DNA of 56,634 nucleotides from a bacterium (GTDB lineage Bacteria; Patescibacteriota; 4484-211; GCA-002791395), in the NCBI GenBank assembly GCA_027002475.1, contig JALWZS010000018.1:1-56634 (forward strand). Reading direction: 5' to 3'. The position numbers and the translations under genes are program-made. Each line of letters begins with the position of its first letter. The stretch's first letter is position 1. Positions 10,601 to 43,077 of the stretch are shown one piece after another. The notes under the pieces are model-generated. The model was not told the origin of the DNA. It ran no database searches and saw only the letters and a program-made list of their open reading frames with translations.

Positions 10601-12731
10601 TACCGTTATTCGAATGAGTTCAAACTCTCCTGATTACACGGTGTATTCTGATGATACTTGTTCGACTACTGCTACTAATGGCGATTTTACGTACACAAAC
10701 GCAGACAGTACTAAAAATGTGTACATTATTGATAATAGAAAAAGTGTTCCTACTTGGACTTTAACTGCAAGTAAACAAAGTGGTCCAGAAACAATAACAG
10801 ACGGGACGCAAGATTACACGGTAGATCCAGGCAATGTCGCCTATCTTGTTATCACCTTACCTGGAGAGACGTTTACAGATGGGGTTGGTAACTCAGGCAC
10901 TCCTGATCTTAACGGTGCGAATTCAGGCAATAACGCAATTGCTGGGCTTAGCTTCGACTTAGTTTCTATTTCAGCTATTGATGTAAATTACAATGTTGTT
11001 GATTCGTACTCTGGTACAAAAAACCTTAGTTGGCAGAGTGGGACTAATTACCCTGCTAACGCTCCGAATGGTGCTTCCCCTAGTTACCCACTAAGCGCAT
11101 CTTTTGCAAATGGGCAAGCGACTCTTAACCTTTCTGTTACTCTTTATGATGCTACTTTAGGCGACGCGGATCCTACAATTGCGTTAGCTGTTGACGACTC
11201 TGATGATGCGGGCGATTTTACTCTTGACTCAACGGAGTTTAGCGTTGAGCCAGATGTTATAAATAGTTACTCTGTTTCTGTTACTACGCCACAAACTGCA
11301 GGAACGTGCTTTACAGGGACAAATACAATAACTGCCCTTGATCAGTACGAGAATATTAGGACCTCTGATGCTTCAACGGTTAACATGACTACAAATGGTC
11401 AAAGTATTAATTTTTATACTGACAACACTTGTACAACTACCACCACGCAATACACTTTAACCTCTGGGAGTAGCAATTTGTATGCAATGACAACTAAAAA
11501 GCAGTCTGGTTTCACAATCACGGCAACAAGAGATGGTGGGACGGAGTCTGGGACGTCAGGTGCAATAACAGTTGACCCTGCAAGTGCTAATGCAATTCTT
11601 GTTGTTTTACCAGGGCAAACTTTTACCGATGGAACAGGCGTTAGTGGTGCAACAAACTTTAGTGGTCTTCGTTCTCCTGATGCAACTGCAGGAATCGCCT
11701 TTAGTGTGGATCTAAAAGCAGTTGATGCGTACAACAACCTTGTTGACTCAGGCACGAACAACTACACAGGTAGTAAAACTATTGATTTTTCTAACTCTAC
11801 TGCTGGCAATGCGCCTGATACTACTTCCCCATCTTTTCCATCAAGTCCCATCTCTTTTACAAATGGGGAGGCAAATGGGCTAAGCATCACTTACTATAAC
11901 GCGGCTACTTCAAGAGATGTTAAGGCGGATGATACTGCAACGCCTGTTAGCGGAAGTATCTCAACTAGTTTTGATGTATTGGCTAATAGTGTTTCTCAGT
12001 ACGGTGTCGTGCCGACCAGTTACACACAAACAGCAGGAGTTGCATTTAACATCGATGTTATTGCTTGGGATGATTGGGAGAATGAGCTTGGTTCACTTTA
12101 TACTGCGCCTTCTGGAACCTATGGGTGGACAACAACTGCCTCCGATGCTCCAGACACGACATCTCCTGTAATTGGAACACTAGTTCAGTCAGATTTTACT
12201 AATGGGACGGCGACTAAGTCGGTTACTCTTTATAAAGCAGAAACGGGTGTAACTTTTGCGGCAATGGATCCCTCAAGTAGTGTAACTGGTACTTCAAGTG
12301 CAATTACGGTTAATCCTGGTGATGTATCGGCAGATACTAATGATTCGTATTTTGTGATAGCAAATAGTGCACGAGCAACTCAAGTGGTACCGCTTACAAT
12401 CACTCTTAGGGATACATGGAGAAATCCTGTTTCTGGTGTGCCTTTTAGCGATATTACAATAAATGCGACGCCTACCGCTACGATAACTCAACCTTCGAGT
12501 AATACAGACTCAAACGGGCAAACAACAGGATCTATTTCATGGAGCGATGAAGGAGTTAAGACGGTAACCATTGGAATTGGAGGTGGTACGAGCTTAGTTC
12601 AAGATAATGGCGTTAGCGCTGATGCGGATGGGCTTTTGGATGATACGCATGACGTAGATGTGAAGTTTAAGGTTCAGGTGCATATTGAAGGAGGCGTAAA
12701 TCTTAATGATGGTGTTCAATTGGCGCCGTAA
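4620..12731 (+). CDS. Giant repetitive cell-surface protein (2703 aa)
   Basis: The N-terminus has one hydrophobic segment (about residues 14-34), which could be an uncleaved anchor or signal. Residues about 410-880 hold three related jelly-roll-like repeats, each with a GGQ..T.W.T core, followed by an IxxAGHYxVT strand. Then come two copies of a domain beginning YRxxxD..L and containing LQWG/LQYG and a Cys pair, and a carboxypeptidase-regulatory-like stretch. The last third has repeated Ig/Big-like domains with the recurring motif LPGETFTDG or LPGQTFTDG and paired cysteines near CSTT/CTTT. No C-terminal anchor is seen, so attachment is probably N-terminal. The start follows the previous stop by three bases, which suggests translational coupling. 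Role in cell contact or envelope structure is inferred from architecture only. Confidence 0.85.
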   Translation: MRVFIEDILAKRLFLAALFLLLAGLTITSYVFVLPSPTKEVPVSLRRETQFPVRLVRVDSSGESSVLGASEVITSSFGDKVLDKVVPFIISVKDNFKSVEMPTFRAEAYMKNEELAKITTVKDSFGAKKDAKVSVDNDGIYKKLTLNFDTSFRPGLYTLDLDLGDGKHIQQDFTWGVLAINTDKSSYSIGNVANLSFAVLDDKGEMVCDAVLTLNVSFPNGESIELTTVDGSITVNPQCKSYKMSLEPDYSARLPLKESGEYKLKLTATTANGVRFIEDGFLVSDAPLLVSLTREAPTRIYPYNRYPVRLKLKSNSKFVGKIIDFVPNGFKVFPSVDSSSEFSVSSLDSERKSITWQVNLDANKEVILSYEFEAPKISPYFFLLGKARALSLNNGESKLMTEEGRFWQIAVDALGDIGVYRESTGGQALTTSVSNQTWDTTVAQGAAFTIDPGGSGRHIIDLADAGHYFVTYSIGWQTSGGTYRSEQQGVINLAGTSLAYGRSSCYIRRTAGADECWTSGSAIIDAASGDDLIIQAYRTDSNTAAGVSRMSDESGLMLVKLEDSWDFARVQEAGGGQAFNSTTFAAVTFDTNDETSTGITHSTTLNTDRIILANTGHYLVTANVMFRNASGSARRNEEMRLTLNGTEIPGTRTSAYLRGSNSTQDHTASFTGIIETTSANAILRVEAACEGEACGGVTNVGGQTGITVAKLPDVAEYLRLHEATGGQDIDAIQDPITWDTDDEVDSASFSHSSNASSFSIIRAGNYIFFGSFYADRTSTTNGTRAYPHWDWHKGGSTVIPYGSFGKYNRGDQSTTGTFSSGDSGAIVLDGLSSGDTIELLNTDETSGTTNTTGQFIGGRYAVQGVRIASLFPIPETTQLHYRWRDDSTALNTNGGWVASEDNDETTAIDRNTTRRVRLEIANTGTAAQTAAKTYELQWGRIQGNGSCSTIATWTGVDDASDDIDLVDSTQITDGASTSALLSNTEGYSFVAGEGKDTSDTTSAIGPLGTSSYTELEYAIRPTNSAVTGATYCFRVVDTTSSTTLDLYSVYPTLTLSSQTVDVPALEWGSQSNVSDTAWTTINFTNRFVNPVFVCSVNYANNIGNEPDGDADATVCRVQNVTATSAQVRLQEPGTTSNSLANAETVYWMVAGEGAYNTPDIKFEAFTYTSTVTDRSSSWVGQAQTYSQSYTNPVVFGQVMSYNDTNWSIFWAHDGSRNPPSSTSLYTGKHVGQDTNTTRADETIGVIVIEKKHGTLGSYTYDAGVSPTQVDRIDDTPPDNASLVSAFSTAPTIALVAETGVNGGDGPFPVVYGTSPFATSTVALAIDEDEIADGEMSGAREEVALLAFDSAGSYSSTRALDQLSYRIYQNTDSLQPSTALASENTPASNISRDDVIRLRMSVQVGERALKANESSFRLQYGQGSTCSSITSWTDVGGVSSDSVWRGYDNSTPNDGDTITSSLLDGGSNVLESYEEENSSSYNPNAINVGQQGEWDFVVQHNGADAGRDYCFRMVQDNGSTFAYTRYPQLTTTSGITISGTCTDFDEVTACPDGQTVRFAINGHLEAQTATTSSGTWTINYVNTPSSGDVITVFLDGVADANEANAVTKYDGTGDITGIKLIEEHLTIGSDDNQVLSNVYLGSFDNSVSSDEDIFFDVDANNDLVVDSLSQSTQEELYILASNTYRPDSSNSGNITTFSIENNGTLTLDGNTLTIEGSGTPFTQNGTFNSDTSTVSYTNSSLANITALTYYNLDFSPTSGTPSYTLLSGAFTVNNLSIAGTGNASVDASVNNPAIDVNGDFSIGAGDTFTASSSASLTIAGNFTNNGTFSANSGTVTFDDASKTSTLLYSAATSFYNFSMTTAGKTLQFDNVDETVILAGGSFVIQGTSCGSIDAVITSDDGTNQFELNIDSTATTNIDFADISFMNATGSAITADQSNDSGSNTNVTFANSCLPQKIVFTNASRTLTAGACNGSANVFVAQLQNNEGTPRAPSANTVIRMSSNSPDYTVYSDDTCSTTATNGDFTYTNADSTKNVYIIDNRKSVPTWTLTASKQSGPETITDGTQDYTVDPGNVAYLVITLPGETFTDGVGNSGTPDLNGANSGNNAIAGLSFDLVSISAIDVNYNVVDSYSGTKNLSWQSGTNYPANAPNGASPSYPLSASFANGQATLNLSVTLYDATLGDADPTIALAVDDSDDAGDFTLDSTEFSVEPDVINSYSVSVTTPQTAGTCFTGTNTITALDQYENIRTSDASTVNMTTNGQSINFYTDNTCTTTTTQYTLTSGSSNLYAMTTKKQSGFTITATRDGGTESGTSGAITVDPASANAILVVLPGQTFTDGTGVSGATNFSGLRSPDATAGIAFSVDLKAVDAYNNLVDSGTNNYTGSKTIDFSNSTAGNAPDTTSPSFPSSPISFTNGEANGLSITYYNAATSRDVKADDTATPVSGSISTSFDVLANSVSQYGVVPTSYTQTAGVAFNIDVIAWDDWENELGSLYTAPSGTYGWTTTASDAPDTTSPVIGTLVQSDFTNGTATKSVTLYKAETGVTFAAMDPSSSVTGTSSAITVNPGDVSADTNDSYFVIANSARATQVVPLTITLRDTWRNPVSGVPFSDITINATPTATITQPSSNTDSNGQTTGSISWSDEGVKTVTIGIGGGTSLVQDNGVSADADGLLDDTHDVDVKFKVQVHIEGGVNLNDGVQLAP

Positions 12732-28141: not shown

Positions 28142-28190
28142 AGAAAAAAGCCCGGAACCACACTATGTGTGGCCCCAGGCTTCGTTTTTT
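28142..28190. terminator. Bidirectional intrinsic terminator between glycan cluster and island
   Basis: GCCCGGAACCACAC (from 28150) pairs with GTGTGGCCCCAGGC (to 28180). A T-run follows at 28185-28190 and an A-run precedes at 28144-28149, so it can stop transcription from both sides. It marks the left edge of the minus-strand island. Confidence 0.85.
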
Positions 28191-30096: not shown

Positions 30097-30243
30097 TAGC
30101 AACCCAATGGATATTGATATTAGCCTATTTGTTAAAGTCCTAGTGTGTATACATATTTATAACACATCAATCAAGATTTTTAGCTTATCCTATCTTGCAT
30201 CCAGATTTATATGAATACAAAGTAGAGTAATCTAAATAAACTA

Positions 30244-30360
30244 TCCCCCCGAGCCTTGCGACCCGGGAGGATATAACTGCTATCGATGTCGCCTACCCTC
30301 CTTAAACCCTCTGCGGGTTTTTTTAAGTCCCCGCGTTAGGCGAGCGGTCTTTTTGGGGGG
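30244..30360. other. Nested inverted repeats overlapping the basic-peptide gene
   Basis: Three nested pairs occur: CCCCCC near 30245 with GGGGGG near 30358; TCGCCTA at 30289-30295 with TAGGCGA at 30336-30342; and AAACCC with GGGTTT in the centre (about 30304-30321). The order is consistent with one long branched hairpin of about 115 bases. It may be an RNA structure covering most of the peptide mRNA. Confidence 0.5.
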
Positions 30361-30456: not shown

Positions 30457-31740
30457 TTATGCCTCTTCGAATTCGTCGATAAGTTCTCCCTCGACGAATT
30501 CGGGAGCGGGTTCAGCTTCTTCGTAGAGGGCTGTGGGCCATTTGCCCGGGTCCTCTACGCTTTGCAGGTCGATGATCTCCCCGGTCTCCGTCAGATCTTG
30601 TATGATCTTAAGGAGTTGACGGACCTGATGGTCGTTTTCAGCCATCAGGATGCCAGCTCGGGCGTCACCTGCACTGGCTACAATTTCGGCATAGGCTTTT
30701 GCCGCCTGTGCTTCCAGTGCGGCAATGGTTTTTTGCTGTGGGGATTGAGCTGCTCGTCGCGCTAGCTCGATGAGAGAACGCGCGATGTTGTGAGCGTTTT
30801 GAAGCCCAAACGCTCGATCTCGAGCCGTAGGTCCGTACCTAGAGGGAAGGTTAATGTCCCCTATCCCCCAGATCTTATTAAGCAGGCCGTCGATGATGCG
30901 ACCACTAAGAGTCGCATTCTCAAGTCCCACCTTCTCGCCGGGTGAAACCACTTGGATCTCCTTAAATTCGGTTAACGGGCCAAAGCTCATATACCGAGTC
31001 CAAGGGATTCGCACGCGTGATTTCCACGCACGGTAGGTGGTGACTACTAGGCGGTCGTGTTTACGATTCCATTCGGTAAAGGCTGTGATGACAAGAATCA
31101 TAAACACTAGAAAAGGGATAACGAAAATGGTGTATTCTGCAAGGTTCGGTAAGGGGAGCCCAAACAGTACCACCACACGCCAAATGAAAAACACAAGTGC
31201 GCTAACGCTTAAACCCGCGATAAGCGTTACCTGTGCTACTCTTGGGTAAGTGGTGACCCACGGACTTGCTGTCAATACCATTTCCACTTCTTCTCCATGA
31301 AGGAGCTTGACTCCCTGCTTGACATGAAAGATGGAATCAACGAGCTCCTCCATTTTTTCTACGAGTCCTAACTTGGGTTTATATCTGCCCGACACTCGTA
31401 GGATTGTGGCTACGATGAGGTTAATGACCTCATACGAGAGCCAAGTCGTAACGAGAACCTGAGCGAATGAGAACACTACTTCGCTTGCAATCAGGTATTG
31501 GAGCTGTGAAAAAGCCTCGCTCGCTCCGGCTGTTCCCGCTGGTAGGACGATGGCCCAGAAGACCGTCTTTATCTTGCCTTCTGGCAAACTCTTCATCACT
31601 AGGATGACTACCAGTACGGCCATCATCTGGGTAAAGATTTGCCAATCCTGAGTGGTTGTACCATTGACCACACTAATTACCCACAGTGCGGTCAAGATGG
31701 TAGATACCAGACTCAGGATGAGTAGGACTGCTTTCCGCAT
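30457..31740 (-). CDS. Polytopic membrane protein with PH-like domain
   Basis: The protein has 427 residues. Four to six transmembrane segments lie in the first 225 residues (about 5-25, 37-50, 60-80, 88-112, 170-192, 200-222). The segment about 230-305 (HDRLVVTTYRAWKSRV..., ending GIGDINLP) resembles the bacterial PH (bPH2/YdbS-like) pattern. The C-terminal third is helical, with Ala/Glu-rich stretches and a very acidic end. The start has AAGGAG seven bases upstream plus the CACTC leader box. A membrane-bound assembly factor for the secretion system is plausible but unproven. Confidence 0.7.
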   Translation of the reverse strand: MRKAVLLILSLVSTILTALWVISVVNGTTTQDWQIFTQMMAVLVVILVMKSLPEGKIKTVFWAIVLPAGTAGASEAFSQLQYLIASEVVFSFAQVLVTTWLSYEVINLIVATILRVSGRYKPKLGLVEKMEELVDSIFHVKQGVKLLHGEEVEMVLTASPWVTTYPRVAQVTLIAGLSVSALVFFIWRVVVLFGLPLPNLAEYTIFVIPFLVFMILVITAFTEWNRKHDRLVVTTYRAWKSRVRIPWTRYMSFGPLTEFKEIQVVSPGEKVGLENATLSGRIIDGLLNKIWGIGDINLPSRYGPTARDRAFGLQNAHNIARSLIELARRAAQSPQQKTIAALEAQAAKAYAEIVASAGDARAGILMAENDHQVRQLLKIIQDLTETGEIIDLQSVEDPGKWPTALYEEAEPAPEFVEGELIDEFEEA

Positions 31741-31856: not shown

Positions 31857-33209
31857 TTATCGTACCCGCAGTTTGACCCAGAAGGGTCTACCTACAGGTT
31901 TGCCACATTCATCATACAGCTGGAATGTGGCTTTTTGTGATCGCCCTTTCTTTTGGGGAACGATCACGGCAGTGACCTTAAAGGTCTTGCCAGGTTGAGC
32001 AGGCTCGACCGTAAAACTCACAAGTTTGAAGTTACCTTTTTCCAGTTTGAGCTGGAAGTCAGCGGTAACTTCATTATCGCCTGTAACCTTAAAGAGCCAA
32101 ACTTTTTCAACTTTCTGGCCCTTCTTAACCTTACTCCCATCAGGGAGCGTGACGTCCTTCTGGAACTTCAAGGACGTGCCACACACCTTTGCAGGAGTGG
32201 GGGTAGTGGTTGGGGTCGGCGTGATGATTGGGGTTGAGGTCGCTTCGGGCGTGGGTGTTGCTGTGGGGGGGGGTGTGGGTATCTCCAACGCTGGCTGGTC
32301 GACCAGCCAGGTCGGCATTTGTCCCCCACCAAGCTTCGTTAACTTTTGAGAACTTGGTGAGATGTGCCACACTTGGCACCCTCCATAGCAGAAGAAACCG
32401 TAGTCCTCCACGGCTTCCTCCCCTGCCCGTGTAAATACAATGCCATTGGGTCCCCATTCAGGGTCAATAGCATCGCCCACCTCAGTCAGCCACTCGCTTT
32501 GGCGCGTCACCAAGTTGAGGGTTTTCAAGTCCCACCCTTTGTCGCTTCTGGCGGCGAAGACAAGCTTCGTGCCATCAGGGGAGAAGCTGGGGAAAATACC
32601 CTCTACCTGTAGGTCTTCGCGAGTGATTTTTCCGTCAAGATTCGCGGTTGCGAGCCAAAGGTCCCACTCACCTTCGCGCTTGCCCTTTTGCGACCAGGCG
32701 ATTTGCCCCGCGGGGCCTAGGGCAGGGGTGATGGCTTGAGTGGCAAGGTTAAGCCGAATGTCATCGGGATAGATGACAATCGTGCTTTTCGGATTCTCAA
32801 AATTAGAATAATCCGTTTGCACGAATACGGCTTTCCCACCGACTGAGGGGCCTAGAAATTCGCCACCCTCTGGTAGAGTGGCGAGGGGACTTTTTCCCCG
32901 AATATCCACCAAAAGCGTTCCTTGGGGATCTTCGGAGAAGGCAAAGTAAGAAGATGGCCAAGCGAGCCCCATGTCGCTCCATTTGGACTCGAACGACTCT
33001 TTCTCGCCAGTATGAAGATCTTTTTGGACCAATTGACCGGAGTCGTTGACCCAAAGAACTTTACCGACCGGTTTTTCCTCTGCCACCTTGACCGGTGTCG
33101 GAGGTGGCGTCGGGGTTAATGCTGGAGGGGGAGGCTGGCTGGCTTTCCAGCCTAGCCATATGGCGAATATGGCTAGCAGGACCAGCCCACCTACTTTTGT
33201 GAATCTCAT
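31857..33209 (-). CDS. Membrane-anchored beta-propeller protein with C-terminal Ig-like domain
   Basis: The protein has 450 residues. Residues about 7-22 form a signal anchor, followed by a Pro/Thr linker. Residues about 50-310 contain repeated TolB/PD40-like blades (FPSFSPDGTKLVFAARSD, then DPEWGPNGIVF). A second TP-repeat linker (about 312-342) leads to a domain of about 105 residues with the pattern DVTLPDGSKVKKGQKVEKVW, close to the NBR1-type Ig-like domain. The linkers suggest it reaches across the cell wall. SD AAGGAG is eight bases from the ATG. It may be an extracellular adhesion or scaffold component of the secretion apparatus. Confidence 0.75.
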   Translation of the reverse strand: MRFTKVGGLVLLAIFAIWLGWKASQPPPPALTPTPPPTPVKVAEEKPVGKVLWVNDSGQLVQKDLHTGEKESFESKWSDMGLAWPSSYFAFSEDPQGTLLVDIRGKSPLATLPEGGEFLGPSVGGKAVFVQTDYSNFENPKSTIVIYPDDIRLNLATQAITPALGPAGQIAWSQKGKREGEWDLWLATANLDGKITREDLQVEGIFPSFSPDGTKLVFAARSDKGWDLKTLNLVTRQSEWLTEVGDAIDPEWGPNGIVFTRAGEEAVEDYGFFCYGGCQVWHISPSSQKLTKLGGGQMPTWLVDQPALEIPTPPPTATPTPEATSTPIITPTPTTTPTPAKVCGTSLKFQKDVTLPDGSKVKKGQKVEKVWLFKVTGDNEVTADFQLKLEKGNFKLVSFTVEPAQPGKTFKVTAVIVPQKKGRSQKATFQLYDECGKPVGRPFWVKLRVR

Positions 33210-33338: not shown

Positions 33339-33364
33339 GAGGACAGGGGGTTACCCCTGCCCTC
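33339..33364 (-). terminator. Hairpin whose loop holds the stop codon of the Rho-like gene
   Basis: GAGGACAGGGG (33339-33349) pairs with CCCCTGCCCTC (33354-33364), with one A-C mismatch. The four-base loop contains the TAA stop (33351-33353). A ribosome finishing the gene would melt this hairpin; there is no T-run. Confidence 0.55.
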
Positions 33365-35102
33365 GCTCGATGGTTAGCTCGTTAACTACATCGGCAACGC
33401 GTTTGCCGTTTACCGATGCTTGACTCAGTGCCTTACCAAGTTCGCTTAACTGGACTTGGGCCTCGAATAAACGAGTGACAAGGCCACTGTTTAGTTTCCG
33501 GATCGATGGATCATACTGCTGTAAAACCCGAAGGTATTGCTGCTTCGAGATTTCGCGATGTGATCCATTTGTCCTTTCCGCGGAAGGCTTGGACTCCGCT
33601 GGGCGGCGTGTACCGTCACCCCGTCGTCTTTCGGCAAGTTCAGCCTCATCGATTAGAAGCTGTGCGACCCGCCGCATTGCTTTGGGCGTCTCTAATGCTT
33701 TCAGTACAGCGTTAAAGGCATACCCAACGACAAGATCTGTCCCTCGCAGAAGATGCATGAGCCGTCCAGCTTCCTCGGCCCATTGTTCCTCCTGCTCGCG
33801 CTCATGGGTTTTATCTTCTTGAGCCCAGAGCGCTTGCCAGGCCGCAACGGCTTCGTCCCAAGGAACACAAACATGCCCTTGTTCGCGGTTACACTCAGCA
33901 AGTTGATGAAGGTATTTTAAAGCCGCCTGGGGGTTTTTCTGCCGCGCGCAGCGCTCGCGGACCTGCTGATGTACCCATAATCGTTCAGGGTCGTTTTGGA
34001 ACATCAAATCCGGGCGCCGCGTAGTGGTGTCATTACCCGTCATCGAAAGTGAAGGGTAGCTAACACCTGCGGTTTTGGGGCGATGCATCCACACGGTGGT
34101 GGAGTTGGGGCCCCCAACGGCGTCGAATATGTTACTGTTGCTCTTCGACCCCATTAAGGCCGCAAAAATGCCAGTGATGCTGGCGTCGTGGCCCTCGGGT
34201 CCCATGCCGACGGTTTGTACCATCGGTAACATCGCTTCGTTTAATGCCCGCGCAGGGATGCCGCCACTTGTAGCGGCAGACCCCTCGTAATGTGGGGCAT
34301 AAACGAACTTTGCCAGCCCTGCAAGCGAATCCACGATAAAGATAACGTGATACCCACTCTCGTACAACCGAATAGCGAGCAACTTCGCTGCGTCAGCAAC
34401 GATTCTTGCCGCTAAGTTACGGTTGTTTTGAGTTGGGTTAGCAAGTGATGGAGACTTCGAGTTGCTTAGTCCAACTAAAGCCTGGAAGTGGTACAAAGGT
34501 ACCCTCCCGGCGTATTGGGCAAGCAGCTTTTCGGTCTCTGTAACATCATGCGTTCGTTCTCCTGCTTGGAGGTGAACGAATGCCATCTTTTTCCAGTTTT
34601 GCCCTGCGAGCTCGAGGAGACTTTGTTCAACCTTGAGGATGGTCGTAGTCTTCCCTGAGCCAAAGTCTCCCGCGGACATTACTTGAGACCCAGGGCCAAT
34701 TGGGGCAATTGCTCGCAGTGCGCGGGTTGTTGGATCTCGAGTAATATCGATGGGCCATTCCTCACGAGGATAGCCCAAGCGATTCCCCGATGTCTCGACA
34801 TGGTCGGCAAACCATGGTCTGTTTTTGACCATTTCGTAGTCTACCAAGCCATTGACGGAGATGATTCCGGCAACCACTTTGCCATGTCGAGTAAAACTAA
34901 TTTCATCCATTTCCCGCAGCCCCCACTGTTCTACAAGCTGGGGGGGGATCAATGGGCGTTTCCTCGCTGTTATCGCGAGGTTGGGATGCTCTTGTAGTGC
35001 CTTCTGAGGCACTACAAAGAAGTCGTACCCTTTCCCTTTAGTGGAAAGGATGGGGATTACAAATCCCCTTACGACTTTTTGGTCCTCAGTAGTTGTTGGC
35101 AC
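33351..35102 (-). CDS. Rho-family hexameric ATPase (island-encoded)
   Basis: The protein has 583 residues. The first 130 match the Rho pre-core layout (LIPPQLVEQWGLREMDEI corresponds to the conserved Rho stretch before the ATPase; no clear RNP motif for the cold-shock RNA-binding domain). The core has P-loop GDFGSGKT (145-152), a catalytic-Glu region GERTHDVTE (181-189, like Rho DERPEEVTE), Walker B VIFIVDSL (D258), an R-loop-like GSK (318-320) and an Arg-finger region TTTRRPDL (359-366, like Rho SGTRREEL). Residues 400-583 are an extra helical tail. GTG start with AAGGAGG eight bases upstream and the CACTCAA box. It could be a transcription terminator or a translocation motor of the secretion system; which one is unknown. 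Confidence 0.82.
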   Translation of the reverse strand: MPTTTEDQKVVRGFVIPILSTKGKGYDFFVVPQKALQEHPNLAITARKRPLIPPQLVEQWGLREMDEISFTRHGKVVAGIISVNGLVDYEMVKNRPWFADHVETSGNRLGYPREEWPIDITRDPTTRALRAIAPIGPGSQVMSAGDFGSGKTTTILKVEQSLLELAGQNWKKMAFVHLQAGERTHDVTETEKLLAQYAGRVPLYHFQALVGLSNSKSPSLANPTQNNRNLAARIVADAAKLLAIRLYESGYHVIFIVDSLAGLAKFVYAPHYEGSAATSGGIPARALNEAMLPMVQTVGMGPEGHDASITGIFAALMGSKSNSNIFDAVGGPNSTTVWMHRPKTAGVSYPSLSMTGNDTTTRRPDLMFQNDPERLWVHQQVRERCARQKNPQAALKYLHQLAECNREQGHVCVPWDEAVAAWQALWAQEDKTHEREQEEQWAEEAGRLMHLLRGTDLVVGYAFNAVLKALETPKAMRRVAQLLIDEAELAERRRGDGTRRPAESKPSAERTNGSHREISKQQYLRVLQQYDPSIRKLNSGLVTRLFEAQVQLSELGKALSQASVNGKRVADVVNELTIERGQG

Positions 35103-35200: not shown

Positions 35201-35238
35201 GGGAATGCCCATCCTCTATGAGAAGGACGGGCATTCCC
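35201..35238 (-). terminator. Perfect 10-bp hairpin at the stop of the wall-enzyme gene
   Basis: GGGAATGCCC (35201-35210) pairs perfectly with GGGCATTCCC (35229-35238); the stop codon of the wall-enzyme gene begins at 35240 and overlaps the arm. Inner CCT/AGG bases extend it. No T-run follows on the minus strand. Confidence 0.6.
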
Positions 35239-37289
35239 TATTTAAAGTGGACTGAAACGGTTAAATACTGCCCGTTCCGAGACCACGTTATTACTGCGGT
35301 CTTGTTTGTCCTGTTTTGCAGGATTATTGGGCTTCCTGGACACACTATCGCTGTATGGAGGTATTTCCTCCACGGCGTTGCATGGTGTCTGGGGGCTCGT
35401 AGCACTGCAATGCCAGGAGTCTTTCTGGCTAAGCTTACGAGCATGGAGGCGTTGTAACAAGTGCCTCCCCCAATATATCCCGCAGCGACTCGGTAGCCAC
35501 GCCAACCATTCTTGACATCGCTCATTGTACAGAAGTTCCACTTCTGCCCCGGAGCAATTTGAATGGTTTGGTTGCGCCGCGCCCACAAAAAAACGTTAAA
35601 CTTCTCACCGTCATTTTGTGGCGCGACCCTCCAGCTTCCAAAGTTGTAAGTCACGGAGTAGGTTCCGTTAACATTACTCGTTGGAAGAGAAGGGGTGGTT
35701 GTGGACTGAGACGTTTTTGAGGGGATATTTGCAGGGTACACAATCCTCCCTTTCATAGGACCCTTGTAAGCGCCGGGAGGTACTGTGCAGAACTTGCAGT
35801 ATCTCATAGCGCTTCTTGGGAAGACTCTGCTTGGCGGAATCCTACCCCCATGGAAGATTTCCATATGGGTGTGGGGCCAGCTAGTAATGCCTGTCCTCCC
35901 AAGGTGCCCTACTGGCGTACTGGCTGTTACGCGTTGACCAGCACGCACGAGAACCCGTCCGTCTTTTCTAGGGACGTTCATTCGACGGACGATTGTTCTA
36001 TTGTTTTCATTCGCCAGATGACAAAGGTAGGCTTTATACCCGCCATCCAAACGAATGATTACCCAGCACCCGTACCCACCAGCGTTGTTGCATCCTGCAT
36101 ACTGCACAACGCCATTGCCTGGAGAGTACACAACTGCTCCTATTGGAGCAGAGATGTCCCAGGCTAGTACACTACCTCTCCTTGGGTTTGTATGATCTTT
36201 CTCGTCTGATGAAAGAACATTCGAGTAAAGAGGCAGATACAGGTACTGACCTATAAACAGGTTGTAGGAACGAACCCTACCTGTCGTCGGACCAGCAGGT
36301 GGTTGGCTGGGATTGGTGTTGTAGATTTCTTCGGCTTGCCGGTAGAACTCGGCATCATCAATTTCTGGAGCAAGTCCGAGGATCTTTAGGAATCCGTAGG
36401 CTAGGTTTTTCCACCAGCTATTATTGATCTGTTCAGACCATGTAACAGCTCCCAAACTACTGATCCCATCGGCATCACCAAGGTATTGTCGGTACTCGTT
36501 CGCCGACTCTACCATTCGGGTGATCCAAGGCTTATGGTGATTCCATCTCCATAAAGCCTTGATTTGTTGGTCGGGGCGCGCTGTCTTATCCCATCCGATT
36601 CTGGCCAGCTCAGCAGCCATAAGGTGCATGGCTGTATCTGGATTCCAGAGATCGAAAGGTGGTTCAACCACGTCCCTGTTCATCCATGCCGTGTACGGCA
36701 TGAATTGCGAACAGCCGAGGGCTCCCGCCCCCCGAGATCCTTTTACCGAATTAAGTGAATAATCCGGTCCGATGTATTTGGATGAAAATGAATTAGGATC
36801 ACTCCTAATGTCATACTTCTTCCACATCGGCAGGAAGAAATCTCGGAGTTTAGCAAGGTCGTTATTGAAACCTCGCTTCCGGAGCTCCTCAGCGGCAGAA
36901 GCCGTTCCTGCATTCGAGCAGTTCCCGGACTCACTTCGAGTAAGCCGGATGTAAATCGCTCGGTCGCAGGATTTTAGCTTTTTAGGGTCATCACGGAATT
37001 GCTCTTTACACCAGACCTCCGTGGCGGTTGCCCGCTGTAGGAGATCAGGGGGGATATTGAGCTTTTCCACAATTTGTTCTTCCCTACTGCTTAAGTCGTA
37101 GCTCGCTGTAATAGCGAGCGGAGAGGTCTGGAGATCAAGGAAATCAATGACTCCCTCGTTCCAGACGCTCTCCGATACCATGTCCCGCATGTTGTAGAGT
37201 ACAGCGGCACTGGCACCAAGAGAAACTACCACTATAGCTACGATTAAGGCTAGGAGGATTAATGTGTATTTAGTGACCTGTCCTAACAC
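35238..37289 (-). CDS. Three-domain cell-wall remodelling protein: lytic transglycosylase, M23-like, VanW-like
   Basis: The protein has 683 residues and an N-terminal transmembrane segment (about 7-32). Residues about 85-265 form a lytic-transglycosylase-like domain with candidate catalytic E120 (TRSESGNC) and GALGCSQFMPYTAW. Residues about 365-485 are LytM/M23-like, with WDISAPIGA (D378), YLCHLA and the HTH pair at 473-475. The usual first zinc His four residues before the Asp seems replaced by Val, so peptidase activity is doubtful. Residues about 575-683 match VanW-like domains (APGQKWNF, then GGGTC). The likely role is opening the wall locally for secretion, like VirB1. GTG start with GGAGG seven bases upstream; 11 bases after the VirB4-like stop. 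Confidence 0.82.
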   Translation of the reverse strand: MLGQVTKYTLILLALIVAIVVVSLGASAAVLYNMRDMVSESVWNEGVIDFLDLQTSPLAITASYDLSSREEQIVEKLNIPPDLLQRATATEVWCKEQFRDDPKKLKSCDRAIYIRLTRSESGNCSNAGTASAAEELRKRGFNNDLAKLRDFFLPMWKKYDIRSDPNSFSSKYIGPDYSLNSVKGSRGAGALGCSQFMPYTAWMNRDVVEPPFDLWNPDTAMHLMAAELARIGWDKTARPDQQIKALWRWNHHKPWITRMVESANEYRQYLGDADGISSLGAVTWSEQINNSWWKNLAYGFLKILGLAPEIDDAEFYRQAEEIYNTNPSQPPAGPTTGRVRSYNLFIGQYLYLPLYSNVLSSDEKDHTNPRRGSVLAWDISAPIGAVVYSPGNGVVQYAGCNNAGGYGCWVIIRLDGGYKAYLCHLANENNRTIVRRMNVPRKDGRVLVRAGQRVTASTPVGHLGRTGITSWPHTHMEIFHGGRIPPSRVFPRSAMRYCKFCTVPPGAYKGPMKGRIVYPANIPSKTSQSTTTPSLPTSNVNGTYSVTYNFGSWRVAPQNDGEKFNVFLWARRNQTIQIAPGQKWNFCTMSDVKNGWRGYRVAAGYIGGGTCYNASMLVSLARKTPGIAVLRAPRHHATPWRKYLHTAIVCPGSPIILQNRTNKTAVITWSRNGQYLTVSVHFK

Positions 37290-37300
37290 ATTATCCTCCT

Positions 37301-39268
37301 TTATCGTTTGATAAGAGAGCTACTCGTGCCGAAGAGTTCGACAATTTTTTCTGGGATATCCGGGGAAAACTCAAACTCCCCTCGAGTAGCGAACGGGACT
37401 CCAGGGCGTGCAGTGGGGATAAACCCAATCGCTTTTTTGAACCCCGACCCGAGTTCCAGGCGGATACCAAAAGCGATGGAATCCCATGAACCACTGGGCC
37501 AAGAGTTGAAACTTTCGGCCGAGTGCTCGATGACAATCGTCATCAGCCCCAGTTTGCGACCTGAGACGATCTGAACCTTGATCTGATTTCTCAGATCGGT
37601 ACCGACCCGCTCGGACAATTGTCCGTACTGAGTTGTGGGTACGGCAGGTGCAGCTGAGACATCATCGTGGATGATGCTCAGTGGCTGTCCTTTGAACAGT
37701 TCATCCCATGCCGCGAGTAGCTGCTTGAGCCACTCGTTGGCATACGCGGCGAACCGCGTCGGACAACTGCCTTGCGACGCTTGTAACACCGCAGGCAGTC
37801 CAATTGGACGACCATATTTACGCCACTCTTTCTTGAGATTGGCCCAATAGATAGCAATTTCCCGTTTGTCTTGAGCGATTAGGCGCTCAAGTTCGTGGGC
37901 GTTCGAGGCGCCAGGGAGATCGAATCTTATGGGTTGCCCCGTCGATGTGGCTTTTACGTAGTCGTGAATTCTCTCAGGGTTCTGAGAGTAAATCACCGTT
38001 ACTACGTGTTCGGCTGCGTGCTGAGCTGCAAGCGTTTGGGCCATTGTAGACTTGCCGGTGCCCGACTCACCAACGAGTACGACTGATGTCATCTCGTCTT
38101 GGCGAACAAGGACAGGCCAGCCTGACTTGTGGCCCAAGCACATGTTTCCACTTAGATCTGAAGGATCACGCGGAAGGGCGGTGAATAGGTCTAGGACTTC
38201 TATTCCCTCGATAGGGGCCGTATTCCACGGAAGTGGAGCAGGTCCACCAGGGACAAATGTCTGGAGGGCTTCACGGAGTCCAAACCCGTCCTCTTCCCAG
38301 ACGCGAATTTGCTTGGTCTTAGCGACCTTTGCGAGTTCTGCGCCTATATTGTCCAGTGCTTTGGGATCAGTGCTCCCAAAGCGGACTAGTATGGTTGCCC
38401 ATGAGCGGGATGATGTATCTCTCTCAACATGGACCAAGAGATCCACCGGGAGTGCGTCGATGGCATTTGCAAACGCCTCTACACTACGAGGCAACACTCG
38501 CCAGATGGCAAAGTGTTTTTCTCCCAACGTATAGAAATTATGGGAGAAGCTAATTGCCTCAGGAGCTCCTGCGAACAAGACGAAATCTGGATTTGGCTGT
38601 GTACCGTTGAGGTTTCGACCAAGCATGGTATCCCAAACAAGGGAGGGAAGCCTGGCGAAATCAACTGTGCGAGTGTCCCCAACAGCATCCTGACCGCTTT
38701 CAGGGATACCGAACCCAGCTGGAGCCCATATTACGAGCTCCTTGCTGGTGAATGGGCGGATGCCTTCCCGCAGAGCGGGTGGAACGGTCCATTCACTAAG
38801 GGCTTGTAGGACCTGAGCTGTGAGTTGTTCATTGGTTCGCGCTGGGCTCAGTTGCTCTAGAATCGGTCCCAGGGGGACCGGAACCGAGCGGATAAACATC
38901 GTAAACCATGGCACTCCAGCCAAAAAGAAACTCTCGACGGAGTGTGGCTTACGATACACGGCAGCAGCTCGCCAGCCGCCGCTAAATCGCCCTGTGGGCT
39001 TGATGAGGGCTGTGTTACCGCCCTCGACCCGTGCTGTTTCAATCCCTAGGGTACTTTGGATAGCATGTACCCTTGCTCGAAACGCACGCTCTTTATCATA
39101 CAAAGCTAATGCTGAGGGACTAAAATGCTCCTCAACAGCGGGCAGCTTATCGCCCGCTTTGCTCTGTACGATGGCATAGCCCTTGGCTACCTTTTCGGTT
39201 TTGGGCAGGCAGCTTAAAACCGCCTCTACCGCCTTTCGAATAGGCGGTCCCAAGCCTGGTGATGTCAA
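37301..39268 (-). CDS. VirB4/HerA-type ATPase of the secretion system
   Basis: The protein has 655 residues. The C-terminal RecA-like domain has Walker A GESGTGKS (400-407) and a Walker B-like LSIIHDDVSAA (D535, D536), with Arg-containing motifs further on. The N-terminal 350 residues form the mixed alpha/beta domain typical of VirB4-like proteins, rather than the membrane helices of VirD4. It should power pilus assembly or substrate movement. The start is TTG with GGAGG six bases upstream, preceded by CACTCAAAC, the island leader box. VirB4 versus another HerA/FtsK clade member is not settled by eye. Confidence 0.78.
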   Translation of the reverse strand: MTSPGLGPPIRKAVEAVLSCLPKTEKVAKGYAIVQSKAGDKLPAVEEHFSPSALALYDKERAFRARVHAIQSTLGIETARVEGGNTALIKPTGRFSGGWRAAAVYRKPHSVESFFLAGVPWFTMFIRSVPVPLGPILEQLSPARTNEQLTAQVLQALSEWTVPPALREGIRPFTSKELVIWAPAGFGIPESGQDAVGDTRTVDFARLPSLVWDTMLGRNLNGTQPNPDFVLFAGAPEAISFSHNFYTLGEKHFAIWRVLPRSVEAFANAIDALPVDLLVHVERDTSSRSWATILVRFGSTDPKALDNIGAELAKVAKTKQIRVWEEDGFGLREALQTFVPGGPAPLPWNTAPIEGIEVLDLFTALPRDPSDLSGNMCLGHKSGWPVLVRQDEMTSVVLVGESGTGKSTMAQTLAAQHAAEHVVTVIYSQNPERIHDYVKATSTGQPIRFDLPGASNAHELERLIAQDKREIAIYWANLKKEWRKYGRPIGLPAVLQASQGSCPTRFAAYANEWLKQLLAAWDELFKGQPLSIIHDDVSAAPAVPTTQYGQLSERVGTDLRNQIKVQIVSGRKLGLMTIVIEHSAESFNSWPSGSWDSIAFGIRLELGSGFKKAIGFIPTARPGVPFATRGEFEFSPDIPEKIVELFGTSSSLIKR

Positions 39269-39396: not shown

Positions 39397-39837
39397 TTAT
39401 TCGGTTGTAGAATCTTCCGCATCACTTCGAGTGATGCTCGTGGAAGAATCTTTTTTTGTTTTTGGTAGCCTAGCCCAGAACCATGACAGGGTGGGTTGCA
39501 GTCTAGCCCAGAGCCACGACAGAGCCTTGCGCCAGTTAGGCGCTTCTGCTCTGTCGAAATGCACTCCAGTCCAGCCTCTTTTGTAGGCAAATCTCGCCCA
39601 GAGGTTCATGACCTCACCATACGCCAAGTACACGGCGTAGAAGGTCAGAAAGAACCCTACGGCGTACATTACCGCCGTGAAGAGCCGGGTGCTGAGCATA
39701 AACGTGCTCAGAGCAACTACAAACCCCACCATAGCAACATACAGCCACTTGACGTGGATGTATGTGTCCTCGCTACCAATTTGAACGACTTTTGTGGGGT
39801 CGTGCCAAAAGCGCACTAACTGTTTCCAGGGGTTCAT
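39397..39837 (-). CDS. Two-TM VirB3/PrgI-like membrane protein
   Basis: The protein has 146 residues with two adjacent transmembrane helices (about 29-49 and 52-75), a basic cytoplasmic middle and a short acidic tail. Size, topology and position between the VirB6-like and VirB4-like genes match VirB3/PrgI proteins, which tie VirB4 to the membrane complex. The ATG overlaps the VirB6-like stop as ATGA, so translation is coupled. Assignment rests on topology and context, not on a sequence motif. Confidence 0.7.
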   Translation of the reverse strand: MNPWKQLVRFWHDPTKVVQIGSEDTYIHVKWLYVAMVGFVVALSTFMLSTRLFTAVMYAVGFFLTFYAVYLAYGEVMNLWARFAYKRGWTGVHFDRAEAPNWRKALSWLWARLQPTLSWFWARLPKTKKDSSTSITRSDAEDSTTE

Positions 39838-41237
39838 GCGTCACCCCCTTTAATGTCCGGCGCATTGGTGGGAGGAGGGAAGACTATTTGCCCTTCGTGG
39901 GCAATGGTTCCCCCATTGTCGTCCACGATCTTCTTTGACGCCCTCTTAATCTCGGGGTCGTCAGGGGATACGTAGACGATAGTTCCGTCGTCGCGTCGCT
40001 CCCGTACAAGCTGTACCGCGTCGTCGACCGCCGCTTTCACCACTGGTGCGGCTTCAGGCGCGCCAGCAGCAGTAGTTGCCACAGCGGCAACGTTGCCTGC
40101 TTGTTTAAGAGCGCCTTCTCCAACCGCCTTAACCTTTGATGGTTTATCTTTACCTGTGTTGGGCGCTTGGGGTGGTGGAGTAGCTTGAGCGACGTCTCCG
40201 TTTGGGTCAGTGGGACCAGGTAGCCGCTTTTTAGTTGGCGCTGGGGTAACCACCACTGGTCCTCCTCCTGGCGGAGGCGGTGGGACTGGGCGCCATGTTG
40301 CGTCCACCCAGCCGTCGTCGCTCTCTCCGCCGCCGTTGCCCGAGCTTTGTGGCGCTCCAGTGGTTTGAGAGCTCTCAGTGCTAGTGTCTGGCTCACTCCG
40401 GAACTTATTAATTAGCCATGCAGCGGTGAGCTCGTCACCGATGCCCGCATCTCCGAAGAAACCGGAGATTTTCCCCTTGATATCTACGTTTTGGCCGATC
40501 ATACCTAAGCCAAAGTAGATGATCAAAGGGCTTAGCATCGTGACTCCCGCTAAGAACCCAATCACCATGAGGTAAATCGAGTTCATGTTGGCGAGCGTTG
40601 AGCCCACCACGCCTTCTGGTTTAAACCCTGCCATCATGTCGACCGCTACTTTGTACAGGCGACCGAACATGGCAAAGGTAAAATACCCGCCCATCCAGGC
40701 AACAAACGGGCGAGCGGAACCAGAGAAGACAACCCACCACATGACAATTGGGAAAGATAGGATGATTACAATTTCCCACCCGTAGTGCCATGCGATGAGT
40801 GTTTTGGTGGCGGCTACAAAGGCAAAAGCCGTTGCTGGATTTGCGTCGGCTGTGAAATTGCCAATAACAAACCCTAACGATTTTCGCACATAGTTGAAAG
40901 TCAGGTCATCAGGCCAGAGTTGCAGACCCATTTTATGAAATTCAACTATAATCATGGAGCCGAACGCGACAGCTGAGTCTAGCCAGACCCACTTTATAAC
41001 CTCAGCCCATTTTCCGTTCGGTAGGGCTTTGGCTATAAAGATCAGGCTGAAAACGATTACGGGAATGGCTAGAACTGTTAAGTGCTCGATAAGCGATCCC
41101 TTAAGCGGGACGAATGCCGCGCTTTTAAACGGAACTGCTTTTTCAAGCAATTTGCCGACCTGGTCGTCGGCGCTGCAGCTTGACAAGATCACTGGCAGCA
41201 GTCCGACGACCAGAAGTCGCAGGCGTTGTACTCTCAT
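39834..41237 (-). CDS. VirB6/TrbL-like polytopic membrane protein with lipobox
   Basis: The protein has 467 residues. The N-terminus ends in VILSSC (Cys near 21), a possible lipoprotein site. About six transmembrane helices follow (about 50-70, 78-100, 130-180 as two, 185-210, 220-255). The last 190 residues are a Pro/Gly/Ala-rich linker and a charged tail, probably soluble. Such proteins form the inner-membrane channel core. It starts inside the stop of the pilin-like gene (ATGA) and overlaps the VirB3-like gene. If the lipobox is used, the orientation of the first helix is unusual for VirB6. Confidence 0.72.
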   Translation of the reverse strand: MRVQRLRLLVVGLLPVILSSCSADDQVGKLLEKAVPFKSAAFVPLKGSLIEHLTVLAIPVIVFSLIFIAKALPNGKWAEVIKWVWLDSAVAFGSMIIVEFHKMGLQLWPDDLTFNYVRKSLGFVIGNFTADANPATAFAFVAATKTLIAWHYGWEIVIILSFPIVMWWVVFSGSARPFVAWMGGYFTFAMFGRLYKVAVDMMAGFKPEGVVGSTLANMNSIYLMVIGFLAGVTMLSPLIIYFGLGMIGQNVDIKGKISGFFGDAGIGDELTAAWLINKFRSEPDTSTESSQTTGAPQSSGNGGGESDDGWVDATWRPVPPPPPGGGPVVVTPAPTKKRLPGPTDPNGDVAQATPPPQAPNTGKDKPSKVKAVGEGALKQAGNVAAVATTAAGAPEAAPVVKAAVDDAVQLVRERRDDGTIVYVSPDDPEIKRASKKIVDDNGGTIAHEGQIVFPPPTNAPDIKGGDA

Positions 41238-41476
41238 AGGGCTTTAATTACCTGATTAGCCTTCTGAAAGAGACTCTGCCAAATCTTGCCCATGTAGGGT
41301 GCAAGCCAGCCAGATTTGGGATGGCCCAGCAGTTCGGGAACTGCGATGACCAGGAGCGAAACGAAGAAGAGCCCGATGATCAAATTTTGCCAATCCATCT
41401 TGAGTCCTCTTTTGATGAGGACAATAAGTAAGATGATGGCAATGATCAGTAGTGCAACGTTAGTCAAAACGCTCAT
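41234..41476 (-). CDS. Two-TM pilin-like (VirB2/TrbC-type) protein
   Basis: The product has 80 residues with two transmembrane helices (about 5-21 and 31-49) joined by a short basic loop and a C-terminal amphipathic helix. Size, topology and place at the head of the VirB6-VirB3 gene string match VirB2-like pilins. ATG at 41476 is chosen because AAGGAG lies six bases upstream; an in-frame ATG 36 codons earlier adds a basic stretch without SD. No cleavable signal is obvious, which is atypical for VirB2. Confidence 0.72.
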   Translation of the reverse strand: MSVLTNVALLIIAIILLIVLIKRGLKMDWQNLIIGLFFVSLLVIAVPELLGHPKSGWLAPYMGKIWQSLFQKANQVIKAL

Positions 41477-41798
41477 TGTTTTTCTCCTTTTTAAGAGAGA
41501 GTGAGGGTGAAAAGAAAAGAGTTTTGGCCCGATTGATTGTCGGGTTGTCTTACCCGGTGACTGTTTCGTCATCAGGTAAGGCAACCCTCCCAGAACGTGT
41601 CTGAGAAAGGCTGCTTGGGCTTTTTAGGTAAAAGCCTACACCCTAACAATCAACCACTCAAGGATTTTGGTTATCTTGATTGATTGTTAACGTGCTCATT
41701 GCTAAGCTCGATAACAATGAAAACCTCCGCTATGGGCGGTTTTGTTTTGTCATCGAGAGCTGTTGTGAGGACGGCGGTTGCCCGTCGCCCTCACTAGC
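41477..41798. other. Hairpin-rich 320-base gap without a gene
   Basis: Several inverted repeats occur: AGGGTTG-type arms at about 41553-41588; TAACAATCAA with TTGATTGATTGTTA at about 41644-41692; a long nested pair AGCTCGAT ... ATCGAGAGCT at 41704-41762, with AAAACC/GGTTTT inside; and a hairpin at 41765-41794 right after the next stop. A stray copy of the leader box (CAATCAACCACTCAAGGA, plus strand, 41647-41664) has no gene behind it. No ORF of note is present. Confidence 0.6.
41765..41794 (-). terminator. Hairpin after the HhH protein gene
   Basis: GTGAGGACGGCGG (41765-41777) pairs with CCGTCGCCCTCAC (to 41794) with two mismatches, four bases after the stop. No T-run follows on the minus strand. 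Confidence 0.55.
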
Positions 41799-42515
41799 TT
41801 ACTTCTTATTCTTTTTTTTGCCTTTTTTGCCCTTGCCTTTACGGGCTCGGGCGAAGGCGTGGGCGAAGGCTGTGCCGTTGCGCTCGTTGGGGACGATTTG
41901 CCGAATCGCTCGGAGGCGACCGGGTCCAATCCCCTTGATTCTCAGGAGCTGGTAGTCGGTGGCGTTGAGAATCCACCCGACAGTTTTTCCTGCGGAATCG
42001 AGGACTTTGCCAATCTCACCTTCGATAAGGGTGCTGGCGGGGAGTTCGGCGGCCTTTTTGGATTCTTCCCAAGCCTGGGCAACCGCCCTGTTGAGTAATT
42101 GAGCTTGGGTGAGGTCGGGTGTGGTGAGGGGCAGAATCTCTGCCAAAAGACCTTCGGCCTTTGAGAAGGCTTTGGCGAAGGCAGGGACGGCAGCAATGAC
42201 TGCGGCATGGTGCGGCCTGTCCTGCAAGTCGAGGAGATTCTTAAAGGCCTTATTGACCAGGTTGTCAATGTAGGCCTTTTCTGCTTGTGCAAGCGTAGAC
42301 TTGAGGACTGCGTTCTTGGCTTGCAGCGCCTCTGCAATCTTCATTGCGTTGGCGCTGTCGGCCTTGCGCAGGTTGCCGGCTGTTGCTCGGGCATCGTGCA
42401 AGGCCCTCTTCAGTTGTGGGTTCTCCTGCACCTTGCGCGGGAGATTGGCGACCTTTTTTTGGAGAGCCTTGAAGGCTCTCAAGGTCGCGATGGGTGAAAG
42501 GTTAGAAGACGTCAT
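41799..42515 (-). CDS. Island protein with C-terminal helix-hairpin-helix and basic tail
   Basis: The protein has 238 residues. It is almost all alpha-helical (Ala/Lys/Leu-rich to about residue 170). A single helix-hairpin-helix-like motif, LLRIKGIGPGRLRAIRQI, is at about 192-209, followed by a Lys/Gly tail (KGKGKKGKKKNKK). HhH motifs bind DNA non-specifically, so a DNA-binding or relaxosome accessory role is possible. ATG at 42515 is fixed by AAGGAG eight bases upstream and the CACTC box; a longer frame to 42614 lacks support. Confidence 0.7.
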   Translation of the reverse strand: MTSSNLSPIATLRAFKALQKKVANLPRKVQENPQLKRALHDARATAGNLRKADSANAMKIAEALQAKNAVLKSTLAQAEKAYIDNLVNKAFKNLLDLQDRPHHAAVIAAVPAFAKAFSKAEGLLAEILPLTTPDLTQAQLLNRAVAQAWEESKKAAELPASTLIEGEIGKVLDSAGKTVGWILNATDYQLLRIKGIGPGRLRAIRQIVPNERNGTAFAHAFARARKGKGKKGKKKNKK

Positions 42516-42573
42516 GGTCTTACTCCTTGAGTGTTTTGAAAAGATGGATGGTTGATATGCCCTTTCATTTTTT

Positions 42574-42713
42574 AAGGGGTAGAGGAGAAACAAGACTACA
42601 TGGCTGCCCTGCACTTTAGTAAAGTCATGCCCCTTCTCTACCCCTTACTATTGTGAGGTGCTACACATCTTATAGCAGATGTGTTGTTGTGCGTTACATA
42701 TAGCATGTGTAAC
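42574..42713. promoter_or_regulatory. Cluster of three palindromes upstream of the HhH gene
   Basis: P1: AAGGGGTAGAG (42574-42584) with CTCTACCCCTT (42636-42646), enclosing ACTTT-agt-AAAGT. P2: ACACATCT (42663-42670) with AGATGTGT (42677-42684). P3: GTTACA (42693-42698) with TGTAAC (42708-42713). P2 and P3 share TATAGCA followed by TGTGT, like paired iterons or operators. They lie in the upstream region of the main operon, so control of the operon or a replication/transfer origin are both possible. Confidence 0.55.
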
Positions 42714-42960: not shown

Positions 42961-43040
42961 GAACGAATTATAACATGGAATTAGTTGATGCTAATAAAAA
43001 TACATCACCGTAATGAATAAATCTTAATAATGTTAAGTAA

Positions 43041-43077
43041 ATAAAAAAGGCGAAAGGAAGTGGGACTCCCTTTCGCC
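43041..43077 (-). terminator. Intrinsic terminator of the 77-residue gene
   Basis: GGCGAAAGG (43049-43057) pairs with CCTTTCGCC (43069-43077). On the minus strand it is followed by six T residues (43043-43048). It ends the first small gene at the right border of the island. Confidence 0.85.

Follow-up and report, generated by a model that had tools for sequence, protein, structure and literature searches.

A divergent Rho-family ATPase encoded within a T4SS-like gene cassette of Patescibacteria

Results and Discussion

Gene organization of the locus

The window (the whole stretch of 56,634 nucleotides that was analysed) carries a cassette of T4SS-like genes on its minus strand, and among them is an ORF with a GTG start that encodes a 583-aa Rho-family ATPase (Table 1). 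The rho gene falls within a predicted transcription unit running from ~42.97 kb to 30.2 kb, where it is located downstream of the genes for the putative machine. Between ~42.97 and 30.27 kb no good terminator was found on this strand outside coding sequence, and the number of promoter-like sites in the region was not above the shuffled expectation.

Among the conserved cassette proteins only the M23 domain of the hydrolase passes a curated Pfam cut-off (9e-13; SLT_2 and VanW are below it). A homologue of this hydrolase is encoded in every cassette that we describe below, and M23 was found in all the homologues scanned except that of G014, with SLT being weak. The VirB6-like protein and the proteins at the VirB3 and VirB2 positions gave no family match in our scans, and are named from topology and position, which fit. 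All five VirB6-like proteins that were read have a lipobox (LTGC/LSSC), and three of these five also have a GAPEAAP-like motif near the C-terminus. For the polytopic EWxR protein we found no relative in the PDB, and the secreted propeller protein next to Rho is absent from the other cassettes read.

Table 1. Features of the cassette and of the 583-aa Rho, in the order of transcription
Feature	Position	Strand	Basis
Terminator-like hairpin, just upstream of the cassette	43049..43077	-	hairpin scan
Best promoter-like site of the region, TTAGCA-16-TATAAT, TG before second hexamer	42967..42994	-	promoter scan
Hypothetical 271-aa protein, first ORF of the predicted transcription unit	41799..42614	-	ORF
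Small 2-TM protein, possible VirB2/pilin position	41234..41584	-	position and TM prediction
VirB6-like polytopic protein, N-terminal lipobox	39834..41237	-	topology, position; no Pfam match
Small 2-TM protein, VirB3 position, directly upstream of ATPase	39397..39837	-	position and TM prediction
VirB4-like P-loop ATPase	37301..39268	-	low-confidence Foldseek and weak profile match
VirB1-like cell-wall hydrolase: TM, SLT-like, M23 peptidase, VanW-like C-terminal domain	35238..37289	-	Pfam
Cassette Rho, divergent Rho-family ATPase, hexameric by family	33351..35102	-	HMM, fold search, tree
Rho: degenerate RNP1 GYDFFVV, residues 25-31, in OB-fold-like N-terminal domain	35010..35030	-	alignment and predicted strand order
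Rho: Walker A, residues 145-152 (G145-T152, including K151)	34647..34670	-	alignment
Rho: catalytic Glu E182 (E. coli E211 position)	34557..34559	-	alignment
Rho: Walker B D258 (E. coli D265)	34329..34331	-	alignment
Rho: R-loop Lys K320 of GSK (E. coli K326)	34143..34145	-	alignment
Rho: arginine finger R362 of TTR (E. coli R366)	34017..34019	-	alignment
Rho: additional C-terminal tail (residues 395-583), helical in a low-confidence model	33354..33920	-	model and alignment
Beta-propeller and Ig-like (N_BRCA1_IG) secreted protein, between Rho and polytopic EWxR protein	31857..33209	-	Pfam
Polytopic protein, conserved EWxR-type motif, cytosolic C-terminus	30457..31740	-	homologue in 9/9 cassettes
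Terminator-like hairpin after EWxR protein; possible unit end	30242..30273	-	hairpin scan
Second terminator-like hairpin, further downstream	28147..28183	-	hairpin scan

The 583-aa protein is a divergent member of the Rho family

The 583-aa protein is a divergent Rho-family ATPase that is nearer to Rho than to other RecA-fold families. Searched alone, it matched the NCBIfam Rho models at 3e-10 and 6e-10 and solved Rho chains at ~1e-6, and Pfam gave ATP-synt_ab alone, sub-threshold. A profile of nine cassette Rhos matched Rho chains in the PDB at 4e-46, followed by FliI/SctN of the T3SS (1e-17) and F1 (~1e-10), and for each of the seven cassette Rhos scanned the lowest E-value came from the Rho models. 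There was no match to the VirB11/T2SSE family in Pfam or NCBIfam, nor to T4SS-DNA_transf (VirD4/TcpA) in Pfam. The AlphaFold model has a mean pLDDT of 58, with much of the core at 70-85, and when this model was searched against the PDB the best 50 matches were exclusively Rho chains. The scores are nevertheless far under the equivalog cut-offs of 315-628 bits (~40 bits for the 583-aa Rho and at most ~90 bits for the best cassette Rho), which shows that the cassette Rho is a diverged paralogue and not an equivalog.

The same picture came from a tree that combined the nine cassette Rhos with 31 rows of canonical Patescibacteria Rho and 13 F1 subunits. The cassette Rhos formed one clade (98/90), sister to canonical Rho (96/95), and Rho was split from F1 at 100/100; the rows of the 583-aa Rho, G014 and G034 carry a long-branch warning. 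Identity in the core is 32% among cassette Rhos and 70% among canonical Rhos, and ~24% between the cassette and the canonical, host-type protein. Identity as FliI/SctN or as an F1 subunit was ruled out by the family scans, the PDB profile and the tree. The assignment to Rho made in the preliminary description was thus borne out, as Rho was the best family in the HMM searches, no other RecA-fold family was seen as best match, and the phylogeny placed the cassette Rhos in a clade of their own beside the canonical Patescibacteria Rhos.

A sequence query of the genome contig collection returned no close relatives of the 583-aa Rho, two profile scans of viral contigs gave no matches, and a profile scan of plasmid records gave weak matches alone, the annotated ones being mostly ordinary rho. 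Hits in three genomes (G285, G234 and G052) were set aside as they proved to be canonical rho.

Active site, N-terminal domain and C-terminal tail

The cassette Rhos share with Rho the RecA core, Walker A and B, the GER/DER region, the GG Q-loop, the R-loop Lys and the GTR Arg finger. In the 583-aa Rho the P-loop, catalytic Glu, Walker B, GSK and Arg finger that had been read from the sequence by the preliminary description were all located by alignment with E. coli Rho, so that the full catalytic set is present, and the GG of the Q-loop is kept as well. The E. coli residue positions were checked within this alignment. Across the cassette family, the GKT of Walker A is invariant and the TR of the Arg finger is found in all members covering that region. 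One cassette Rho (G375) lacks the R-loop Lys, and Asp replaces the catalytic Glu in several cassette Rhos of the WWE3 class.

The N-terminus is variable among cassette Rhos. In the model of the 583-aa Rho its strands are arranged, at moderate confidence, as in the OB domain of Rho (E11-19, E26-32, helix, E67-73, E76-83), and the second half of this domain was detected by profile and model, also at moderate confidence. RNP1 is the primary RNA-loading site of Rho. At this position GYDFFVV of the 583-aa Rho aligns with GFGFLRS of E. coli, and the motif is degenerate across the cassette clade, whereas an RNP1 of YGxLR type is still recognisable in most canonical Patescibacteria Rhos. The earlier remark that a clear cold-shock RNP motif is lacking therefore held in substance, but the motif is degenerate rather than absent. 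The extra tail, put at 180 residues before, is real and amounts to ~190 residues: the 583-aa Rho has 221 residues after the R366 column as compared to ~54 in canonical Rho. Such a long tail (~190-240 residues) is common to this protein and its G014 homologue only, the other full-length members having 51-84.

A canonical rho is present elsewhere in the genomes

The cassette Rho is an extra copy, and an ordinary rho is also present in all nine cassette genomes. In the seven of these that were searched with the Rho family a canonical rho was found above cut-off in each, and in G034 and G391 there is a second, ordinary Rho-type match elsewhere in the genome. The canonical rho of the host is on a different contig (G000:C30:41861-42964, 577 bits), and we therefore reject the 583-aa Rho as the only rho of the host. 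A sole host rho that lacks any link to T4SS genes, which would have spoken against the preliminary description, is not what we found, given this separate copy and the tight linkage to the cassette.

Of 71 locus records of canonical Patescibacteria rho (e.g. L073 and L069-L071; flanks of ~1.5 kb, some genomes being repeated), 58 have an M23/LysM peptidase gene adjoining rho, a conserved arrangement that is also seen at the canonical rho of the host. An origin of the cassette Rho by capture of such a canonical rho-M23 pair is unsupported, as the two genes stand in the opposite order in the cassette and its hydrolase has another N-terminal part.

Distribution and inheritance of the cassette

The cassette was found in nine genomes from four Patescibacteria classes, and the shared content is a VirB6-like lipoprotein, a small 2-TM protein, the VirB4-like ATPase, the SLT/M23 hydrolase, the EWxR protein and Rho. 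The closest homologue found is in another class (G014), where the neighbourhood is the same (EWxR protein, Rho, VanW-like/hydrolase protein, P-loop ATPase and VirB6-like lipoprotein) at ~24-32% identity per protein. VirB6-like, small 2-TM, ATPase, SLT/M23, EWxR and Rho genes follow one another in this order in the WWE3-class carriers G094, G145, G333, G375 and G292; the carriers of this class include RAAC2_WWE3_1 (CP006914.1), some WWE3 cassettes are cut by contig ends, and the one in G333 is split across two contigs. The full set is present in G034, which belongs to the fourth class, and G391, which was unused in any model, has all five cassette genes.

In a scan of 380 genomes, sampled evenly over the phylum, the cassette ATPase profile gave confident matches in exactly eight, with three more at ~20 bits, and all eight had a cassette Rho within a few genes. 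Several of these genomes went into the profiles; G034 (from the 380-genome scan) and G391 did not. The co-occurrence of Rho with loci of this kind, raised in the preliminary description, was thus seen in every confident case. Over 374 genomes of the class of G034 the ATPase profile found G034 alone, and among the eight genomes available for the class of the source contig the cassette is in the source genome only. In the WWE3 class (45 genomes) the Rho profile gave six cassette Rhos at 309 bits or more and canonical Rhos at 140 bits or less.

In two congeners of G034 (G012 and G136) the cassette is absent and the gene order is collinear on both flanks. The block in G034 runs from Rho (410591) to 421710, taking in the genes up to the VirB6-like one and the small genes upstream of that, and it sits between secA and a 155-aa gene that adjoins secA in both congeners. 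Rho is therefore inside a unit that was gained or lost as a whole. No integrase or relaxase was recognised among the G034 flanking ORFs scanned. In the tree the G034 Rho nests within the WWE3 cassette Rhos (with the long-branch caution), which is consistent with transfer between classes.

Relation of the cassette to T4SSs

We call the cassette ATPase VirB4-like at low confidence. Foldseek placed eight R388 entries containing TrwK/VirB4 first, followed by TcpA, using a model with a mean pLDDT of 45 and at TM-scores near 0.16, and comparison of the ATPase profile with standard Patescibacteria VirB4 gave a weak match of 49 columns around the P-loop. No VirB4 match was obtained by Pfam, NCBIfam or PDB sequence profile, and the label given in the preliminary description is therefore kept on the fold and the weak profile match, with the VirB4 HMMs silent. 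That VirB11 and VirD4 are not visible proved correct: neither these nor a relaxase or coupling protein was above cut-off among the cassette proteins scanned, and VirB9 and VirB10 were not found in the cassette. The sole VirD4-type match in the cassettes is the G014 ATPase itself (E=0.003, below cut-off). A different contig of the host gave a VirD4-like hit.

The T4SSs surveyed in Patescibacteria, which are MPF-FATA-related, consist of VirB4, TrsD, VirB3, VirB6, VirB1 and mostly distant VirD4-like genes, most of them lack VirB11 and a nearby coupling protein, and Rho has no occurrence in the survey (PMC12102498). The cassette is similar to these systems in its M23 hydrolase and in that neither VirB11 nor a relaxase was found, and probably also in its putative VirB4-type ATPase and in the small and polytopic proteins that would correspond to VirB3 and VirB6, but differs in that its ATPase is missed by the VirB4 Pfam models and that a Rho is added. 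A standard VirB4-type protein was above cut-off elsewhere in 13 of 15 genomes tested, that of the host included, which makes the cassette a second T4SS-like system apart from the standard one, in a phylum where the means of contact with partner cells are a main question. Replacement of VirD4 or VirB11 by Rho, as the preliminary description proposed, is a reasonable inference and should be read as such, because the same gaps are usual in standard Patescibacteria T4SSs (PMC12102498) and the host has the VirD4-like hit.

The cassette might instead be another envelope machine, e.g. for DNA uptake or envelope remodelling, with Rho as its motor. The VirB4 and VirB6 labels are structural or positional and only M23 is over a curated cut-off, and this, together with the failure to find a relaxase, VirD4, VirB9 or VirB10 in the cassette, speaks for such a machine. 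We nevertheless regard this as very improbable, as the order small 2-TM, polytopic, 2-TM, ATPase and SLT/M23 resembles that of reduced monoderm T4SSs and the best Foldseek matches of the ATPase are TrwK/VirB4 and then TcpA.

Possible role of Rho in the cassette

Rho is a transcription terminator, and to our knowledge its sole known activity is translocation on RNA or ssDNA and termination. In the genomes described here, which come from very different tiny bacteria, an extra, highly diverged Rho is always found in the same T4SS-like cassette, separate from the canonical rho, a pattern suggestive of the recruitment of a Rho hexamer into a secretion machine as one of its working parts. We consider it moderately probable that the cassette Rho is a Rho-derived hexameric motor, forming an obligate part of a T4SS-like cassette that is distinct and has spread horizontally among Patescibacteria, and feeding substrate to its translocon. 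The strict co-inheritance, kept ATPase residues, decayed RNP1 and fast divergence fit a motor that serves the machine and not global termination; from the sequences, the two latter features would fit a release from that task.

We infer the hexamer, its membrane docking and its handling of a substrate as follows. The cassette Rho would most likely lie against the VirB4/VirB6-like translocon on its cytoplasmic side. The neighbouring EWxR protein, which is polytopic and always beside or near Rho, may hold it there and is our best candidate for a membrane partner or dock. In this place the cassette Rho would hydrolyse ATP, engage substrate and feed the channel, a job that would correspond to that of VirD4/VirB11 in T4SSs or of the F1-like FliI/SctN in the T3SS. 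VirB11 acts as an assembly ATPase, and F1-type hexamers (FliI/SctN) have been recruited into the T3SS. The cassette Rho possibly takes a place or role like that of VirB11 and VirD4, as a further cytoplasmic RecA-type hexamer beside VirB4, although it has no sequence match to either and Rho belongs to the F1/Rho branch. With FliI/SctN it would have in common that a hexamer of the Rho/F1 branch is recruited to a secretion machine, but the cassette Rho is nearer to Rho, with Rho-type Q- and R-loops and T4SS-like neighbours.

The parallels with VirB11 and with FliI/SctN, the latter being the second-best profile match, could also point to an assembly or remodelling ATPase, in which the Rho hexamer disassembles or unfolds pilus subunits, hydrolase or effectors and no substrate is translocated. 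The cassette linkage fits such an enzyme too. Sequence similarity to VirB11 is absent, however, and the Q-loop and R-loop Lys are largely kept, which is beyond the needs of a protein unfoldase, and we find this role unlikely. The cassette could also secrete without Rho acting as its motor. The carriers are presumed epibionts, and Rho is an RNA translocase by descent. Export of RNA or RNA-protein, with the Rho ring in the role of coupling protein and delivering RNA or ssDNA to the T4SS-like channel toward a partner cell, appears quite improbable.

Kept Q-loop GG and R-loop Lys residues (the latter in most members) would also suit an island-specific factor, mentioned in the preliminary description, with the cassette Rho acting on transcription of its own operon by termination or antitermination, or taking the place of the host Rho (anti-silencing, mixed hexamers). 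This would be the established function of Rho, and the cassette, which at least one lineage has gained or lost as a block, is the kind of DNA that is silenced by Rho. On the other hand, RNP1 is degenerate in the cassette clade and recognisable in most canonical Patescibacteria Rhos, and the gene is downstream of structural genes and not among regulators. Mixed hexamers are in addition made less likely by strict retention with the machine over four classes, in spite of an identity to host-type Rho of 24%. We therefore hold an island-specific factor to be doubtful, and a terminator less likely than a motor.

In a literature search, in which subscription papers and preprints were thinly covered, no secretion or envelope machine with a Rho-family motor among its conserved parts came to light. 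If the cassette Rho is such a motor, this would parallel the recruitment of F1-type hexamers (FliI/SctN) into the T3SS, with another branch of the superfamily being used for secretion, and it raises the question whether RNA, DNA or protein is moved by the ring.

Genes near the cassette

This contig contains an ORF of 2703 residues on the plus strand (4620-12731), with no Pfam match. In the WWE3 genome G145 a giant gene encoding a 2774-residue LamG/beta-propeller protein (L066:10999-19323, minus strand) converges on the end of the cassette rho gene, and a giant ORF is similarly placed in G333. The uvrA gene is near the cassette both in this contig (16767-19634) and in G014 (L021:1-1411), though the two genomes are of different classes.
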